Of a DNA stretch of 64,000 bases, positions 26,097 through 26,382 are shown in pieces. The position numbers were made by a program, and so were the translations under genes. Each line of letters starts with the position of its first letter. The stretch's first letter is position 1. The stretch lies in NCBI GenBank assembly GCA_943787175.1, contig CALSLK010000028.1, positions 1 through 64,000 of the forward strand. Reading direction: 5' to 3'. A model generated the notes under the pieces. It worked only from the letters and a program-made list of their open reading frames with translations, searched no databases and was not told the origin of the DNA. This DNA comes from an uncultured Alphaproteobacteria bacterium (GTDB lineage Bacteria > Pseudomonadota > Alphaproteobacteria > SP197).

Positions 26097-26165
26097 TCGG
26101 CTTCAACCTTGTCTTTGGCCACCTGTGCGCCTATCTCTCAGGCTCCACCAACCGGAGATATGGTG

Positions 26166-26342
26166 ATGGCTCGTAAACCCCCGCGTGTGCGGCGGCGTTC
26201 GGGTGCTGCCCGGGCGCTTGCCGATCCCCGATACCGCCAGAAGGTTGTCCGCAACCCCAAGGCCTACACAAGAAAGGGCCGTCGCCCCACTGGGCGCGGC
26301 CCTTCTGATTCCGGGGATACAATCACCAGCTTGTGTGCGTGA
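26166..26342 (+). CDS. Small basic protein resembling alternative ribosome-rescue factor ArfA
   Basis: MARKPPRVRRRSGAARALADPRYRQKVVRNPKAYTRKGRRPTGRGPSDSGDTITSLCA; core ADPxYRQKVVRNxKxYTRKGR resembles ArfA DPLFRQRVxxxKKGKGSYxRKG; SD CGGAG; hairpin inside ORF. Confidence 0.6.
   Translation: MARKPPRVRRRSGAARALADPRYRQKVVRNPKAYTRKGRRPTGRGPSDSGDTITSLCA
26271..26306 (+). terminator. Stem-loop inside the ArfA-like ORF
   Basis: agaaagggccgtcgcccCACTgggcgcggcccttct: AGAA-GGGCCG-CGCCC arms pair with two single-base bulges. Confidence 0.7.
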
Positions 26343-26382
26343 CTGCCTTGGCAGCCCACCGGCGTGTTCCTAGACTTGCTGC

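Follow-up and report, generated by a model that had tools for sequence, protein, structure and literature searches.

A short open reading frame (ORF) in an uncultured alphaproteobacterium raises the question whether ribosome rescue of the ArfA type, in which the rescue factor is made from non-stop mRNA, extends to this class. In E. coli, a hairpin in arfA causes transcription termination or RNase III cleavage, so that ArfA is translated from non-stop mRNA; tmRNA tags the protein, which is then degraded but builds up when trans-translation fails (PMC3989581, PMC8012679). According to a review and a survey, ArfA occurs in gamma- and some betaproteobacteria (PMC11633108, PMC8874680). The survey, published in 2024 and covering 15,259 genomes, adds a Bacillus group, reports arfA in none of 2,376 alphaproteobacteria, and used nucleotide profiles with nhmmer at E 0.05 (PMC11633108). 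Its failure to find alphaproteobacterial members may stem from these nucleotide profiles.

The ORF lies at positions 26166–26342 of the window, by which we mean the whole 64,000-nucleotide stretch of DNA that was analysed; all features described here are on the + strand. It runs from an ATG at 26166 to a TGA at 26340–26342 and encodes a protein of 58 amino acids, MARKPPRVRRRSGAARALADPRYRQKVVRNPKAYTRKGRRPTGRGPSDSGDTITSLCA. A Shine–Dalgarno-like GGAG (26154–26157) is placed 8 nt upstream of the ATG, and GGAG is found 7–8 nt upstream of the start in all nine orthologues. The 58-codon ORF predicted by the first-pass annotation is therefore real, with the sequence quoted there and a GGAG ribosome-binding site upstream. 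An alternative in-frame TTG start at 26109, which would give a longer ORF of 77 amino acids, remains a caveat on the 58-residue start.

The orthologues were identified by searches of 61 genomes, followed by a profile search of 16 genomes of the order; nine of the 16 carry the gene, and all nine belong to one family. A scan of named genomes returned only four loci, all in MAGs that carry the label uncultured Alphaproteobacteria or Rhodospirillaceae. Within the sequence stretches retrieved, the gene order glcF–arfA-like–TPR-like gene–pykA is common to the nine orthologues, with a VOC gene inserted in this neighbourhood at four of the nine loci.

ArfA is poorly structured when not bound to the ribosome, and homology to it was assessed with sequence profiles. 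Scanned against Pfam and NCBIfam, the window protein had no useful match, PF03889 (ArfA) and DUF7230 (PF23876) included, and searches of the window's genome with PF03889 and with DUF7230 found no match either. A match of the window protein to an NHLP leader was dismissed, as its score of 11.9 bits fell below the cut-off of 50.9. When a profile of the nine orthologues was compared with the PDB (177,635 sequences), six ArfA sequences topped the whole set, but only marginally (E = 0.03). A profile of all 27 members matched ArfA at E = 2e-8. Without the three intermediates that contain KGK or KGR, ArfA was matched at E = 3.4e-6, the next match lying at 0.99, and hhalign aligned this intermediate-free set to E. 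coli ArfA residues 12–48 with a probability of 92%. Among ten relatives that were scanned, L054 and L068 score above the PF03889 cut-off and one just below it; L055 exceeds the cut-off of DUF7230, below which others score. The resemblance to the ArfA core noted at first pass thus holds through profiles and PF03889-passing intermediates, whereas the direct PF03889 match that was to confirm it is missing.

The conserved core, RRRSGAARALADPRYRQKVVRNPKAYTRKGR, spans residues 10–40 (26193–26285). It shares with E. coli ArfA (YhdL, PF03889) a short basic pattern, AL-DP-(F/Y)RQ(R/K)V-N-Y-RKG, and the pattern common to the relatives is RRNxxAxxLxxPxxRxRVVxxKKxYxRKG. DUF7230, a family of unknown function, has the same core motif as the ArfA-like members of the class, although it does not match the window protein itself. 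Compared with E. coli ArfA, the window protein has one residue fewer between Ala18-Leu19 and Asp22 and three fewer before the Tyr; the position of Phe25 is occupied by Tyr23, and by Phe in some orthologues. The mRNA-channel motif KGKGS is absent from the window protein, which has NPKAYTRKGRR in its place; KGK is present in L054 and L068. On the strength of the profile matches, we call the window protein ArfA-like and homologous to ArfA without counting it as a strict PF03889 member.

These data also bear on a rival reading, in which the likeness to ArfA is confined to the basic core and the ORF encodes a small basic protein that binds RNA or the ribosome but serves another function. The missed PF03889 match, the lack of KGKGS and the shortness of the match, about 30 residues, would all be expected of such a protein. 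Nevertheless, we regard it as quite unlikely, since ArfA alone stands out among the PDB sequences, the intermediates bridge the window protein to ArfA, and the ORF shares an internal hairpin, a feature that marks arfA and brfA as well.

This terminator-like hairpin, agaaagggccgtcgccccactgggcgcggcccttct, occupies 26271–26306 and lies inside the ORF, with the RKGR codons of the conserved core as its 5' arm. Its most stable part (26274–26304) has a folding energy of −25.4 kcal/mol, and the 61-nt stretch around it reaches −29.8 kcal/mol (z = −3.5 relative to dinucleotide-shuffled sequences). The strong stem-loop starting on the RKG codons that the first-pass annotation had noted was recovered at exactly the same coordinates, and its fold stability was confirmed. 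An Rfam scan of the window gave no match. When codons were shuffled synonymously, support for the window hairpin alone was moderate (z = −2.1; 7/200). The stem is followed by a weak U-rich stretch (CTTCTGATTCCG, 26302–26313), which we presume to be the zone of the mRNA 3' end; the end itself is inferred. The U-tract 3' of the stem, CUUCUGAUUCC, is weak, and several relatives have stronger T runs.

In all nine orthologues the hairpin is found at the same place within the ORF, on the codons directly after YT. The nine pairs of the outer stem are unbroken throughout; one change is two-sided (G-C to A-U) and three pairs show one-sided changes. Sliding the stem partners lowers pairing from 87% to at most 61%. 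Stem covariation across the nine orthologues is weak and does not exceed that of within-pair shuffles, so that support for the hairpin rests on codon-preserving shuffles and on hairpins in other families. Such shuffles gave 0–14/200 in seven of the eight other orthologues, five orthologues being at 6/200 or fewer; the hairpin of L009 was not significant in this statistic. Synonymous codon identity downstream of the Tyr is only slightly higher than in the core (0.66 vs 0.58). Conservation of the hairpin inside the ORF, a check proposed at first pass, is met by these nine orthologues and by similar hairpins in other alphaproteobacterial families.

Downstream of the hairpin the protein is not conserved. 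Total length varies from 56 to 140 amino acids among the nine orthologues, and their tails diverge beyond a GPFDS stretch, except in the closest pair. The C-terminal tail of the window protein (DTITSLCA, 26316–26339) is not conserved, the tails of more distant orthologues differing wholly in length and sequence. This agrees with the earlier view of the tail as dispensable, as does a promoter-like site that overlaps the ORF end in two orthologues; its presence there indicates that the tail can accommodate other signals.

In the window, the promoter-like site (TTGGCA-N17-TAGACT, 26348–26376) precedes the TPR-like gene. The pattern TTGGC[AT]-N17-TANANT recurs close 3' of the hairpin in seven of the nine orthologues, and farther downstream in an eighth, against a background of about 0.01 per 300 nt. 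A promoter in this position is consistent with a transcript that ends at the hairpin. A short ORF with a terminator-like hairpin directly 5' of a gene in conserved position could also be a leader-peptide attenuator controlling the TPR-like gene. This we consider highly improbable, given that the TPR-like gene has its own promoter-like site 3' of the hairpin and that the core of the peptide is conserved at the protein level and is seen in multiple families.

To define the spread of the gene, 387 alphaproteobacterial genomes were sampled by profile search. The wider profile found members in 34 of them, as short ORFs from many families, whereas PF03889 reached its cut-off in eight; a search of a plasmid collection found no alphaproteobacterial relative. 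In a single-script scan with uniform thresholds, a terminator-like hairpin before the stop was detected in 18 of 34 ArfA-like ORFs examined, compared with 10 of 123 control ORFs (p = 5e-8; p = 7e-5 with the window's family counted once). As controls we used long reading frames between stop codons, taken from the window and from these same loci; some of them may be in the wrong frame. Codon-preserving shuffles of one member per family, hairpin-less members included, gave a Fisher combined p of 2.7e-5. Several hairpins resemble textbook terminators, among them those of L064 (AAAAGGCCGCTC...GAGCGGCCTTTTT) and L137 (...GGCGCT, then TTTTTGTT).

In most hairpins of the class, the 5' arm begins 3–9 nt past the start of the Tyr codon, which means that the RKG codons make up the stem. 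In the window's family this distance is 7–9 nt, whereas the same script placed the in-ORF hairpins of the E. coli, Pasteurella and Vibrio arfA controls 24–41 nt past the corresponding point (the Vibrio anchor being approximate). The alphaproteobacterial counterpart of the arfA architecture that the first-pass annotation had suggested is therefore borne out as far as the in-ORF hairpin is concerned. Its scope had been understated, as the branch is spread through the class, and the hairpin sits on the RKG codons while that of E. coli lies further downstream. Six members from small AT-rich genomes (L053, L058, L059, L060, L062 and L071) have a normal stop just after the RK codons and no hairpin; regulation by a hairpin would hence not be universal.

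The hairpin could still be no more than an ordinary terminator overlapping the 3' end of a gene for an ArfA-like rescue factor, in which case full-length mRNA would suffice and tmRNA would not be regulatory. Members that end normally after the core without a hairpin, and the weak U-tract of the window, are compatible with this. Terminators normally come after the stop codon. Here, the stop lies 27–279 nt past the hairpin in all nine orthologues, and in-ORF hairpins are enriched among ArfA-like ORFs, which makes a mere overlap unlikely. Efficient termination at the hairpin would, in any case, yield non-stop mRNA.

The window's genome encodes tmRNA, as do all 16 relatives tested and 26 of 30 further members of the class. 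ArfB is also present in the window's own genome. A published figure puts ArfB in 85% of alphaproteobacteria; among class members carrying the ArfA-like gene we found it in 6 of 30. An anti-correlation between the two factors is not claimed, because in the window's family ArfB occurs only among genomes positive for the ArfA-like gene (5/9, vs 0/7 of the negative genomes). In these seven genomes of the family (G001, G003, G006, G007, G010, G011 and G013), neither the ArfA-like gene nor ArfB was detected; either trans-translation is their sole rescue route, or another factor went undetected. In E. coli, the V198/F217 pocket of RF2 takes Phe25 of ArfA (PMC6299226). We mapped these positions onto the RF2 of the relatives, a step that is ours and not from that paper, and found Val and Phe retained, with Ala at the Phe position in RF1. 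RF2 was not found in the window's own genome, which is incomplete.

Starting from what is observed, namely the ORF, its homology to ArfA, the hairpin, its conservation within the ORF and the presence of tmRNA, we propose with a probability of about 0.72 that the product of the ORF is an ArfA-like rescue factor that depends on a release factor, is made from non-stop mRNA and accumulates only when trans-translation fails. At the hairpin, which lies on the RKG codons, either transcription would stop or RNase III would cut; the weak U-tract of the window would be compatible with either. Most of the arfA-like mRNA would then end before the stop codon, and the ribosome would stall at the mRNA 3' end. 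An end near 26306–26315 would give about 47–50 residues, and cleavage of the stem by RNase III a product ending near residue 40. With working tmRNA, this product of about 40–50 residues would be tagged and degraded; when trans-translation fails, it would accumulate. The non-stop mRNA, tagging by tmRNA, recruitment of RF2, rescue activity and the transcript 3' end are all inferred, in the absence of expression data. Against this reading we count the missed PF03889 match, the lack of KGKGS, the weak covariation, the weak U-tract, the presence of ArfB, the hairpin-less members and the seven gene-negative genomes.

The proposed factor shares with E. coli ArfA the in-ORF hairpin before the stop, the dispensable tail and a tmRNA in the genome. 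An internal terminator is also known from BrfA of Bacillus subtilis, a rescue factor made from non-stop mRNA (PMC6881298); BrfA belongs to a Gram-positive bacterium and is described as distinct from ArfA. ArfT of Francisella tularensis is likewise a small basic rescue peptide that recruits release factors (PMC6299226). It differs from the window protein in that, at about 40 amino acids, it works with RF1 or RF2 and has no internal terminator, whereas the window ORF has a hairpin; ArfT also lacks a hydrophobic residue at the F25 position, where the window protein keeps an aromatic one.

On balance, we favour the view that these genes form an overlooked, divergent alphaproteobacterial ArfA branch that includes DUF7230, in which the codons for the channel-binding RKG residues double as the 5' arm of a terminator. 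Such a branch would be new relative to the surveyed literature, in which no mention of DUF7230 was found; an earlier mention of alphaproteobacterial members cannot be excluded. If this is true, one piece of sequence serves both as the protein's ribosome-binding end and as the switch that makes its mRNA non-stop, and the backup logic known from gammaproteobacterial arfA also operates in lineages that were assumed to depend on tmRNA and ArfB alone. A divergent ArfA-like branch with internal terminators of its own would extend the fail-safe circuit to another class, would suggest a function for DUF7230, and would bear on when alphaproteobacteria without ArfB can lose trans-translation. A basic core combined with an in-ORF terminator may also serve as a signature for rescue factors that sequence searches have missed.

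Two further observations concern the release factors. The RF1 gene of the window's genome (L163, G000:C12:31000-33200) is split by several apparent frameshifts, one of them at the GGQ region; these are likely assembly errors, as the copies in relatives are intact. The stop-codon recognition motif of RF2, SPF, is kept in L096 and reads SPY in L097 and L098.
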